A DNA stretch of 60,819 nucleotides, taken from Salinivenus iranica. Its GTDB lineage: Bacteria; Bacteroidota; Rhodothermia; Rhodothermales; Salinibacteraceae. The position numbers and the translations under genes were made by a program. Where the stretch lies: the NCBI GenBank assembly GCA_002894665.1, contig NCRB01000012.1, positions 1 to 60,819 of the forward strand, in the 5' to 3' direction. The notes beneath the pieces are model-generated. The model worked only from the letters and a program-made list of their open reading frames with translations. It had not been told where the DNA came from and did no database searches. Positions within the stretch are counted from its first letter, which is position 1; every line of letters begins with the position of its first letter. This document shows, in pieces, positions 37,658 through 41,874 of the stretch.

Positions 37658-40375
37658 TTAGCTGCAGCGCGAGTGTCCGCAGTCGGCGCACATCATGCAG
37701 CCTTCCACGTGGCGCACATTGTCGGAGCCACACTTGTCGCAGGTGACCCCGTGGGTGTCGGCGTGGGCCCGCAGGGCCTTCGCCATGGAGCGCCCGAAGC
37801 TGGCAATCGATCCCTCCGCCTTCTCCAGCTGCTCGACGAGGAAGTCGATCTTGGAGCCGTGACGGAGCGCCGTCGACACCAGCCGGGTCTCCACGCGCAC
37901 CTCGTCGGAGGGCATGTGGCTCGTGATGTCCTCGATCACCACGTCGCCCTCCGGCGTGAGCAGCGAGTAGTGTCGGCTCTCGTTCTTCCGGATCTGCCCC
38001 TTCCGGATCTGGTCTTCCTGCGCCTCACCGAAGAGCGGGGCGTCGCCCTCGGCCTTGAAGGCAAACACCTCGTACGGGTCGTCGTCGAGGAAGCCGACCA
38101 GGATGGTCCAGTGGTCGCCGCGGTAGCGGACACGGTGCACCGCGCACGGGAGCATGTCGGGCCGTTCCGGGGCCTCGGTGCGGGGCACCTTCTGGTTCTC
38201 CTCGTCCTCGTCGTCGCCCGACAGGACGGCGCTCATGGTGCCGGCGCGGTAGGTTGTTACTCCCTTAATGACGCCGGTCTCCCACGCGTCGAGGTAAAGG
38301 TCCTTGAAGTTCTCAAAGGGATAATCCTCGGGCACGTTGACCGTCTTGGACATCGAGGAGTCCACGAACGGCGCCAGGGCCTCCATCTGACGGAGGTGGT
38401 CCCGGACGTCGAGGTCGCGAGTCGTCACGGCCCAGTCGGCCTCCGGATCCCACTCGCCGCGCTCCTTGAGGCGACGGACGGCGTAGTCCTCCACCTTCTC
38501 GTCCTTGCAGGGCCCGCGCGTCGGGTGAATCTGCCACTGGGTGTAGCCCTGCTCCGCGCAGCGCAGGACGATCTCGTCGCCGTGCTCCTCGGCCGTCCAG
38601 GCCGTGCCGTCGGCGTCGATGTCCTGCCCCGCCGAGTAGGCATCGGGCGACATCGGCGGCGCGGTGATCTCGTCGGGCAGTGCCGGCTGCTCGGCCGTGC
38701 GGATGTAGCTGTGCATGAACACCGGCTCAATGCCACTCGACGGCGCATTCGCCAGCGTCGACGTGTTGCCGGTCGGCTGGATGCTGAGCAGGTGACTGTT
38801 GCGCAGGCCCAGGTCCCCGATCATCTCCTTGGTCTTGTCCGAGAGACGCTGGACGAACGGGTTCTTCAGGTACTCGTCCTTGTCGAAGAGCGGGAATGCG
38901 CCCTTCTCCTCGGCGAGGCGCGCGCTGGCCTGGTAGGCCTGGTTGGCGAGGTGCTCCTGGAACTCCCGCATCACCTGCACCCCATCCTCGGCCCCGTAGC
39001 GCTTCTCCATCATCATGAGGGCCGAGCCGTCGCCGTAGTGGCCGAGGCCGATGCGGCGCTTCTGCTGGAGGTTGCGGCGCTGCTCCTCCAGCGGCACGTA
39101 GCTGAGATCGTTCACGTTGTCGAGGAAGCGGACCGCGGAGGGGATGACCTGATCGAGCAGGTCGTAGTCGATGGCCCCGGCGTCCGCGTCCACAAACTGC
39201 GTGAGGTTGAGGTTGCCCAGCAGGCACACGCCGCCCACCGGCAGCACCTGCTCGCCGCACGGGTTCGTCGCGTTAATGTGCTCGCAGTACGCGAGGTTGT
39301 TCTCCCGGTTGATGGTATCGACGAAAATGACGCCCGGCTCATTCCGGTCGTACGTGGAGCGCGTGATCAGGTCCCAGATCTCACGGGCGTCGTAGATGGC
39401 CTTTTCGCCGGTGGCGGGGTCGCGCCACGTTTTTACCGTCCCGCCCTTGGCCTCGTACTCCTTGAGGTTTCCGTTCCAGTGTTCGCGGTAAAATTCGGGT
39501 TCGCCCTCAAAGTCCGGGAAGCGCAGCGCCCACGTGTCGTCATTCTTCACGGCCTTCATGAACGCGTCGGACACGAGGACCGACATGTTGAACTTGTGGA
39601 GGCGCCCCGGCTCCTGCTTCGCCTTGATAAACTCAATGATGTCGGGGTGCCACACGCCCATCGTCACCATCTGGGCGCCCTTGCGGATCTTGTCCTTGAC
39701 GTCGTCGCGGTCGGACTGCATGCCGGAGCCGGCGACGATCGTGGCGGCCTGCTCATTCCACACGTCCAGCATCTGCACGGCGCCGGGCGTCATCGAGCCC
39801 ACTCCGCCGATGCGCGACCCGCGCGGTCGCATCACATGACAGCAGAAGCCGTAGCCGCCCTCGGACGCCAGAATCTTGGCCTGGCGGGTCAGCTCCGCCT
39901 GGATCTCGTCCATCGAGTCCTGGTCGTGCCCCTGAAAGCCCGAGACGAAACAGTTGATGAGGGTAGCCTTGCCGAGGGACGTGCCGGCATTGGCGAAAAT
40001 GCGTCCACCGGGCGTGAAGGGAAAGGGCCCGGTGCCGAGTCCCCGGCCGCTCAGGAGCTTGTAGAACTCCTGAGCCCAGTATTCCTCATCGTCCTCGACA
40101 CTGGCGAGGTAGCGGGCGTTGCGATACCAGGTGTCGGGGACGTGGGTATCGGTCCCATACTGATAGTTTTGTTCGTAGACTTCCTCGGAGATTGTGGTTT
40201 CGAAGATGTCCGCGTTGGTCCGGTCATCGGTGATGAGCTCGCTCTGACCGATTTGGAACTGTTGCTCCGGCGCGTCGGCGGCAGGCGCCATTTCAACGGT
40301 GCCGTTCGCCCCCGAGGAACGAGCCGTGACCTGGGTTGCGGAGTCCGTGGAGGAGGGAGAAGTTGGGTCTGCCAT
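37658..40375 (-). CDS. nrdJ: Adenosylcobalamin-dependent (class II) ribonucleotide reductase
   Basis: 905 residues. It reduces ribonucleotides to deoxyribonucleotides with 5'-deoxyadenosylcobalamin as radical generator, needing no separate radical subunit. A Ser/Thr-rich leader of about 45 residues precedes the core. Markers: TPGGRIFANAGTSLGKATLINC, GGYGFCCHVMRPRGSRIGG, the catalytic NPCGEQVLP (Asn, Cys, Glu), RRIGLGHYGDG, SIQPTGNTSTLANAPSSGIEP, and a C-terminal zinc-ribbon tail (CDKCGSDNVRHVEGCMMCADCGHSRCS), typical of the NrdJ long form. No ATP-cone is seen. Its mRNA leader carries a cobalamin riboswitch and a terminator 20 bp before the start. Confidence 0.96.
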   Translation of the reverse strand: MADPTSPSSTDSATQVTARSSGANGTVEMAPAADAPEQQFQIGQSELITDDRTNADIFETTISEEVYEQNYQYGTDTHVPDTWYRNARYLASVEDDEEYWAQEFYKLLSGRGLGTGPFPFTPGGRIFANAGTSLGKATLINCFVSGFQGHDQDSMDEIQAELTRQAKILASEGGYGFCCHVMRPRGSRIGGVGSMTPGAVQMLDVWNEQAATIVAGSGMQSDRDDVKDKIRKGAQMVTMGVWHPDIIEFIKAKQEPGRLHKFNMSVLVSDAFMKAVKNDDTWALRFPDFEGEPEFYREHWNGNLKEYEAKGGTVKTWRDPATGEKAIYDAREIWDLITRSTYDRNEPGVIFVDTINRENNLAYCEHINATNPCGEQVLPVGGVCLLGNLNLTQFVDADAGAIDYDLLDQVIPSAVRFLDNVNDLSYVPLEEQRRNLQQKRRIGLGHYGDGSALMMMEKRYGAEDGVQVMREFQEHLANQAYQASARLAEEKGAFPLFDKDEYLKNPFVQRLSDKTKEMIGDLGLRNSHLLSIQPTGNTSTLANAPSSGIEPVFMHSYIRTAEQPALPDEITAPPMSPDAYSAGQDIDADGTAWTAEEHGDEIVLRCAEQGYTQWQIHPTRGPCKDEKVEDYAVRRLKERGEWDPEADWAVTTRDLDVRDHLRQMEALAPFVDSSMSKTVNVPEDYPFENFKDLYLDAWETGVIKGVTTYRAGTMSAVLSGDDEDEENQKVPRTEAPERPDMLPCAVHRVRYRGDHWTILVGFLDDDPYEVFAFKAEGDAPLFGEAQEDQIRKGQIRKNESRHYSLLTPEGDVVIEDITSHMPSDEVRVETRLVSTALRHGSKIDFLVEQLEKAEGSIASFGRSMAKALRAHADTHGVTCDKCGSDNVRHVEGCMMCADCGHSRCS

Positions 40376-40395
40376 AAGCTACGTGCCTTGGAATG

Positions 40396-40429
40396 AAAAA
40401 AACCTTCGGACGCCCCATCGTCGCGAAGG
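40396..40429 (-). terminator. Intrinsic terminator in the nrdJ leader
   Basis: On the minus strand CCTTCG-C-GACG (40429-40419) pairs with CGTC-CGAAGG (40412-40403) around a 6-base loop, with one bulged C, and is followed by seven T residues (40402-40396). It ends 21 bp upstream of the nrdJ ATG. Its position after the aptamer makes it the likely expression platform of the riboswitch. Confidence 0.85.
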
Positions 40430-40449
40430 CACAGAGGGGAAAGCGGAAG

Positions 40450-40685
40450 GGGCTGGCCCCCCGGACCGACGGGCTGACTCGGGGGGACCAGCACAGCTCC
40501 ACACGTTCCGACCGCTGCCCCCAGGACGCGTGGGGACACCCCTTCTGCCCGACGGGCGAAAGGGCGGACCTGCCTCCGAGCAGGCACTCGGACTGTTACC
40601 GTTGCGCGACAGCGCCGGAGTTGCACCGGGCTTTCCCTGAGATGCAGGCCCCGCAGAGGGCCTGCCTGCCGCACGACGGACGCGC
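40450..40685 (-). promoter_or_regulatory. Cobalamin (B12) riboswitch of nrdJ
   Basis: Read on the minus strand. A P2-type hairpin GCAGGCCC/GGGCCTGC is followed by the core GGGAAA-GCCC-GGTGCAACTCCGG (40638-40615 region) and GCTGTCGCGCAACGGTAACAG (about 40613-40593), which match the conserved class: GGGAA, GGTGnAAnTCCgg, and GCnGnCnCGCnACnGTnA. A further hairpin TCCGAG/CTCGGA follows, then a B12-box-like GAGTCAGCCCGTCGG at about 40485-40468. The match to the E. coli btuB aptamer core is close. Aptamer ends are approximate. The terminator lies downstream, so control is expected at transcription termination. Confidence 0.88.
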
Positions 40686-40716
40686 GGCCTCGGAGGAGAG
40701 GGAGTATGTATGTAAG

Positions 40717-40749
40717 ATTCTAAATACGGGGCCCGGGGGGAAGTATCAA
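40717..40749 (-). promoter_or_regulatory. Candidate promoter of the nrdJ leader
   Basis: On the minus strand TTGATA (40749-40744) is separated by 17 bp from TATTTA (40726-40721). A TSS about 10 bp later would begin the leader just before the aptamer. The -35 is 5/6 and the -10 only 3/6 of the sigma-70 consensus; an overlapping TAGAAT (40722-40717) is an alternative -10. Rhodothermota promoters are not well defined, so this is tentative. Confidence 0.35.
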
Positions 40750-41070
40750 GTCGACGGCCCGTGGCATCTGTTATTGGGAACGGCCCGCGATCCGCACAGG
40801 ATGAGACAGGGCCGTATTTCCGCGGTGGAGACCGTTTTTGTGAATTCAGTAACGTTCCCGCGACGGTTGGGACAGCGTCTCCTGGCGCCCCCGCCGATCC
40901 CGTCTTTCAGGACACGGTGCAACGCGCCCCCGGCCCGGTCGTTTGTCAATTTCAGGTTTGTCGCTGCCCACGCCCCCCGGCCGTCGTCGAGCTGGGGATG
41001 GAGGAACCTTCATCCGCGGTCACCAATAGGGGCGATCCGTCTTTGCTCTCGACTGTCTCGCGCTTGCTCC

Positions 41071-41874
41071 GTGTCTCTTCCGTCTACACTAGCCCCGATC
41101 CGCAATCAGGCGACGGCCCTTGCCACTCGGGCGCACGTTCCGTTCTCCAACCGGCCCACCGCCGCGGTGCTCCTTCTCGACGACGGCCAGTGGATTCCCG
41201 GGGTCCGCGTCGAAAGCGCCTCCTACTCCCTTACCATCCCCGCCCTGCTCAACGCCTATACCACGGCGGTGACCTGGGGCCGGTCCGCCGATGTGGTGGC
41301 GTTTGTTCTCTCCCGGCCGTTTCGGCGCGAGGAGAGGCTTTACGTGGAGGAGCTGCCGCACGGCCCCTACAAGGCGTACGCCGACGATGCCTGGCTCCGG
41401 GGCCGGTGGACCGACGACGGCGCCCGTGCTCCGTTCGGCGATCCCTTCTCCCCCTTCCTCGAGGGCCCCGTCCGCGAACCGGCCCGCGGCGTCCGGGACG
41501 CCCGTCGGACCGCCGGGCACGCCTACGTGCCGGCCTCGTCCTTCCACGTCGGCGCGATGTTCGAACTGGAGGATGACCGCCTCGTGCCCGGCGTCAATGT
41601 GGAACACCCCGACTGGGCCCGCATCCTCTGCGCCGAGCGGAACGCACTGGGGACCGTCTGCTCGTACGATGCCGCCCCCGCCCGGCGCCTCTTCCTCTCC
41701 TGCGCCGAAGACCCGGAGGGCACCCCCTGCGGCGCGTGCCGACAGGTCCTCATCGAACACTTTCCCGAGGCAGAGCTGTGGATGGACCGGCACGACGACC
41801 CGCCGGAACAGACCCCCCTGTCCGCGCTGCTCCCGGGCTCCTTTCGGGGCCGCGCCCTGCTGAACGACGACTGA
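41071..41874 (+). CDS. Tandem-domain cytidine deaminase, N-terminal domain inactive
   Basis: 267 residues from a GTG at 41071, the first standard start after which the sequence looks coding; the frame is open much further upstream across the nrdJ leader, which is rejected. Two cytidine-deaminase folds are visible. The first (about 20-90) aligns to the family as VPFSNRPTAAVLLL and VRVESASYSLTI, but the zinc CAE triad is replaced by PAL (57-59) and the PCxxC is absent. The second (about 145-240) keeps Cys187-Ala-Glu189 in LCAERNAL and Cys220/Cys223 in PCGACRQ. Escherichia Cdd has the reverse order, with the active domain first. It probably deaminates cytidine or deoxycytidine to uridine forms. 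Divergent from nrdJ. Confidence 0.85.
   Translation: MSLPSTLAPIRNQATALATRAHVPFSNRPTAAVLLLDDGQWIPGVRVESASYSLTIPALLNAYTTAVTWGRSADVVAFVLSRPFRREERLYVEELPHGPYKAYADDAWLRGRWTDDGARAPFGDPFSPFLEGPVREPARGVRDARRTAGHAYVPASSFHVGAMFELEDDRLVPGVNVEHPDWARILCAERNALGTVCSYDAAPARRLFLSCAEDPEGTPCGACRQVLIEHFPEAELWMDRHDDPPEQTPLSALLPGSFRGRALLNDD

Follow-up and report, generated by a model that had tools for sequence, protein, structure and literature searches.

The gene nrdJ, which encodes a class II adenosylcobalamin-dependent ribonucleotide reductase, is preceded here by a riboswitch that is, by its sequence, real, well conserved and of a known class, with cobalamin as its predicted ligand. We conclude that this riboswitch, of the Cbl-II type, probably represses nrdJ by terminating transcription when adenosylcobalamin is abundant. 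Its likely role would be cofactor-matched dosage of the enzyme, given that no reductase other than NrdJ was found and that NrdJ itself requires the ligand. It is counter-intuitive that a cofactor should switch off the one essential enzyme that depends on it. In the usual isozyme story, presence of the cofactor silences the cofactor-free enzyme; here the sensor sits on the enzyme that needs the cofactor.

Results

Layout of the nrdJ leader

The leader occupies positions 40396-40749 on the minus strand of the window, by which we mean the whole 60,819-nucleotide stretch of DNA analysed. Its aptamer, helices, terminator, antiterminator pairing and gene context are read from the sequence itself. 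In transcriptional order it comprises a promoter, an AdoCbl-II aptamer, the P13/L13 hairpin and a seven-T terminator, with nrdJ immediately after it (Table 1). The same layout was found before the B12-independent nrdBA operon of relatives.

Table 1. Features of the nrdJ leader and gene (positions in the window)
Feature	Position	Strand	Remarks
Probable promoter, TTGATA-17-TATTTA	40721..40749	-	Conserved in relatives
Whole aptamer domain, P1 to P1	40568..40700	-	121 bits with the covariance model of 15 leaders, by construction, because the window is a source sequence of that model
AdoCbl-II core (P3-P6), L5 UCGCGC	40581..40639	-	RF01689, 42.2 bits (gathering score 36.5)
P13 hairpin with L13 (ACGCGUCC)	40518..40536	-	Kissing partner of L5; antiterminator strand in its 3' half
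Long GC hairpin between P13 and terminator, drawing both together	40452..40492	-	Minimum-energy fold
Terminator hairpin, CCUUCG-C-GACG-AUGGGG-CGUC-CGAAGG	40403..40429	-	-13.5 kcal/mol
T7 tail of the terminator	40396..40402	-	20 bases before the ATG at 40375
nrdJ, 905 aa, ribonucleotide reductase of class II (adenosylcobalamin-dependent)	37658..40375	-	TIGR02504, 440 bits

Of 14 nrdJ leaders from the genus and family, 13 show a motif of the form TTGATA/TTGACA-17-TAnnnn at the matching site, whether or not they carry a riboswitch. As a sigma-70 promoter it is a weak match that a consensus scan missed; position 40749, the upper bound of the region described in the earlier note, is its first base. 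That note had also reported a hairpin with a seven-T tail ahead of the nrdJ ATG, and this was recovered at 40396-40429, 20 bases from the start codon. A simple terminator scan missed it, probably owing to the bulge.

Upstream of the promoter, CAATAACAG and AATTCACAAA (window 40768-40777 and 40832-40846, minus strand) reappear in the genus ahead of nrdJ promoters and of some nrdB promoters, and may mark the site of a shared regulator. In four riboswitch-less nrdJ leaders (L066, L067, L068 and L076), DnaA-box-like sequences of the TGTGGA type (TGTGGAAAGAA, TGTGGATAGAA) lie just upstream of the -35 element; none was seen at the matching site in riboswitch-bearing nrdJ promoters.

Identity and conservation of the aptamer

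Scanning the window by cmscan yielded a match to RF01689 in the nrdJ leader above its gathering score (E 9.1e-7). The cobalamin aptamer proposed in the earlier note was thus borne out, but under a different family: RF00174, which the note had named, gave no match to this leader at E 0.001. We ruled out the Cbl-I class (RF00174) for this site, as the sole RF00174 match of the genome lies on another contig (C50:28673-29008), as a second B12 riboswitch, before a TonB-dependent receptor gene. The covariance model in Table 1 was built from aptamers of the genus and family, the window sequence among them; the P1 strands lie at 40688-40698 and 40573-40580 (minus strand).

In 15 distinct leaders (8 nrdJ, 7 nrdBA), 98.1% of the cells in six aptamer helices were paired, compared with 34-54% in slid-structure controls; the structure was drawn partly from the same alignment, so some edge over the slid versions is expected. 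Two-sided changes occurred in 16 of 31 pairs (mean of shuffles: 6.2 pairs). They fell mainly in P1 and P2, and the helices of the binding core were nearly invariant. On this comparison of sequences, the leader RNA is under selection as a structure. Kissing complementarity between L5 and L13 was found, with CGCG in both loops, which lacks covariation support because it is invariant.

The regulated gene and its genome

NrdJ exceeded the TIGR02504 cut-off of 399.95 and also matched PF02867 and PF00317. A class I NrdA from another family also scores barely over the TIGR02504 cut-off, so the absence of a small subunit matters for the class call. In the genome we found no class I small subunit (PF00268), no class III NRDD (PF13597) and no RTPR (TIGR02505) over cut-off, and nrdJ was the single gene with PF02867. 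Although the assembly is a draft (133 contigs, 98.8% complete), a class I gap caused by it is unlikely because the near-identical genome G307 also lacks a class I reductase. The closest named record, Salinivenus lutea DBO, has a 100% identical NrdJ. The enzyme directly behind the riboswitch is itself B12-dependent, as had been claimed. It also appears to be the only target, again in line with the earlier note: the next gene on the strand is a tRNA-Leu about 160 bp after nrdJ, and we rejected polycistronic control on this ground.

The divergent gene (window 40393-41874, plus strand) encodes a cytidine deaminase (PF00383, PF08211), likewise of pyrimidine nucleotide metabolism, and its open frame extends across the riboswitch on the opposite strand.

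CobS is absent from the genome of this salt-loving host, and one cobalamin adenosyltransferase is present, consistent with uptake of B12 over its synthesis; judged from these two genes, the organism seems to be a B12 auxotroph. As no substitute reductase was found, its supply of DNA precursors should depend on B12 import.

A ligand-excluded antiterminator

The L13 loop (CGCGUC, or CGCGCC in two) follows P1 in 22 of 22 leaders examined, and its CGCG is complementary to that of L5; in cobalamin riboswitches these two loops are known to kiss (PMC9600662). L13 and the 3' strand of P13 can also pair with the ascending terminator arm. In the genus, a terminator arm could be recognised in 16 nrdJ and nrdBA leaders (9 nrdJ, 7 nrdB), and in every one P13/L13 pairs with it, at -17.7 to -24.9 kcal/mol; the unbroken run reaches 15 pairs in G309 (nrdBA leader) and 13 in G199. 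When arms were permuted among species, the observed mean was -20.7 compared with -18.6, and 0 of 5000 permutations were as low, in a test that ignores relatedness and in which the nrdJ/nrdB split explains much of the difference. One antiterminator pair has changed on both sides (G-C in nrdJ, A-U in nrdBA leaders), and in G296 the P13 strand and the terminator arm are altered together; over the aligned set, the count of two-sided changes was not above that of column shuffles.

In the window, the duplex is interrupted, CCCCA, CGUC and UGGGGG of P13/L13 facing UGGGG, GACG and CCUUCG of the arm. As long as the 3' arm has not been transcribed, 14.6 antiterminator pairs are expected; among 200 dinucleotide-shuffled arms, 1 was as good. 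The helix was weaker in rank, with 2 of 111 sequence windows as good, and shuffling was less clear-cut for some other nrdJ leaders (as good in 24/100 for G147, 16/100 for G199 and 14/100 for G310).

With L13 barred from pairing, the antiterminator shrank in every leader folded. Most kept hardly any of it or none; the window's own leader went from 10.7 pairs to 3.4. In the majority the terminator then formed; few pairs were seen in the terminator-like hairpins of G296 and G313. At equilibrium, the complete leader of the window has 9.9 terminator pairs versus 1.7 antiterminator pairs without ligand. Equilibrium thus prefers the terminator either way, and read-through would depend on kinetics during transcription. 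Since L13 is unable to both kiss L5 and form the antiterminator, the anatomy indicates an OFF switch with B12: a terminator together with an antiterminator that the ligand excludes. The alternative pairing between aptamer and terminator that the earlier note had envisaged was accordingly found, on the very loop that the bound aptamer sequesters. Where that note had left a choice between an ON switch and lowered expression at high cofactor, the anatomy backs the lowering and lends no support to the ON switch.

Distribution within the genus

The aptamer was present in 9 of 14 nrdJ leaders and absent from G308, G312, G311, G309 and G314; on these five, the genus covariance model gave nothing convincing (best E 0.2). 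Two changes on the nrdJ tree account for this distribution, a count that cannot tell gain from loss. The riboswitch looks ancestral in the genus, with probably two losses. As to a derivation of the window's riboswitch from a lost nrdBA operon, the aptamer tree is weakly resolved and two losses on the nrdJ tree suffice. In G312 a terminator-like hairpin with no T tail persists at that position, as expected if loss of the antiterminator forced the subsequent loss of termination, and G308 retains a weaker remnant.

The presence of class I does not follow that of the riboswitch across the genus: S. ruber-like genomes have both class I and the nrdJ riboswitch, G000 and G307 have only nrdJ, with the riboswitch, and G314 has only nrdJ, without it. 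Genomes of the genus thereby form a natural series, in which nrdJ occurs with or without the riboswitch and with or without class I, and comparing them can test what the switch is for.

A third AdoCbl-II copy, close to the nrdJ leader and decayed, lies on a 35.5-kb replicon (L047, G147:C2:22522-22598); its L5 is altered (GCTTTCGCAAAACGG) and no Pfam-recognised gene stands behind it. Long in-frame inserts, probable inteins, occur in nrdJ of G309, G310, G296 and G314 (L073, L074-L076, L086-L089), and nrdA of G147 (L038:3110-4831) carries a LAGLIDADG domain and an intein-splicing match below cut-off. Repeated intein invasion of reductases in the genus is likely on these matches.

Riboswitches on reductases outside the genus

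In another family of the order, an AdoCbl-II aptamer stands before class I nrdAB, and no Rfam riboswitch was detected at four class II nrdJ loci of that family (L132, L133, L135 and L137), which is the textbook arrangement. Thirty nrdJ loci of the phylum outside the genus, from other families and with green sulfur bacteria counted separately, gave no Rfam match. In the green sulfur bacteria (L155-L174; FMO gene in 4 of 4 tested), RF00174 stands directly before nrdJ in 13 of 20 loci (e.g. L164:1164-1431), of which 8 had been picked for a nearby riboswitch hit; among the other 12 loci, 5 carry it. Their nrdJ is of the B12-dependent type, in a different subfamily (PRK07562 type).

Discussion

From this anatomy we infer ligand binding, the direction of the switch in vivo and its physiological role as follows. 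Without ligand, the 3' half of P13/L13 would pair with the nascent ascending arm of the terminator, and the polymerase would continue into nrdJ. With ligand, L13 would be kept in the kiss with L5 and the antiterminator blocked, so that the terminator hairpin and seven U's would halt transcription 20 bases before the ATG. At high B12 the cell would make less enzyme, all of it chargeable; at low B12, more apoenzyme might catch the scarce cofactor.

Physiologically, an ON switch would be the simple arrangement: bound B12 would keep the terminator from forming and activate the B12-dependent enzyme. B12 does raise a B12-dependent enzyme in another bacterium, where no riboswitch is nearby (PMC11575231). 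We nevertheless regard it as very unlikely: none of the bound-aptamer helices searched overlaps a terminator arm, the sole antiterminator found uses L13, which binding sequesters, and the layout is shared with nrdBA leaders, for which the known logic is OFF. Control of translation instead of termination, for example via the ribosome-binding site, is hardly credible here. Many cobalamin riboswitches do act on translation, as stated for Chlorobi (PMC8620254), but this leader has a terminator with a T7 tail and, within the genus, a dedicated antiterminator.

The element might also be a relic of an ancestor that had class I as well, now insensitive or constitutively read through in a lineage with nrdJ only. 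The riboswitch is missing in two lineages of the nrdJ tree, a relative carries the decayed copy on a small replicon, and class I is absent here. Yet the window's aptamer scores above the gathering threshold, P1, P13, L13, the terminator and its T7 are all kept, and the antiterminator beats 199 of 200 shuffles; lineages without the aptamer are mostly also without an intact terminator. A relic therefore appears unlikely, and we favour a working OFF switch.

We give roughly even chances to a broader reading, drawn from these genomes: that a B12 auxotroph whose sole reductase is B12-dependent uses an OFF riboswitch to set its dose, and that this logic recurs with another riboswitch class in green sulfur bacteria. 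In the literature searched, with major B12-element surveys lying outside that search, we found no report of nrdJ as a riboswitch target. The element belongs to a known class, and what is unusual is its target, an enzyme that needs the repressing cofactor.

B12 riboswitches are known on B12-independent reductases, namely nrdABS of Streptomyces and nrdDG of delta-proteobacteria (PMC545781); Propionibacterium acnes has them on nrdAB and nrdDG, and its nrdRJ is explicitly without one (PMC3848588). Like the present riboswitch, these sense B12, control a ribonucleotide reductase and are expected to be OFF switches. However, they control the B12-free isozyme and leave nrdJ free, whereas here nrdJ is controlled and no other reductase was found. 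With AdoCbl-II (RF01689) riboswitches, ours shares the P3-P6 core, a short P6 without the large side domain, the L5-L13 partner hairpin and the terminator; their usual targets are transporter genes, biosynthesis genes or B12-independent isozymes, in contrast to the B12-dependent enzyme here. The repressing cobalamin riboswitch named for mutA in Veillonella parvula (PMC9600662) offers a precedent, as the gene is by its name that of a B12-dependent enzyme, methylmalonyl-CoA mutase. Unlike nrdJ, it does not encode an essential enzyme of DNA precursor synthesis. The green sulfur loci come close in arrangement, with a B12 riboswitch directly before nrdJ, but differ in their large P6 side domain, longer leader and other nrdJ subfamily.
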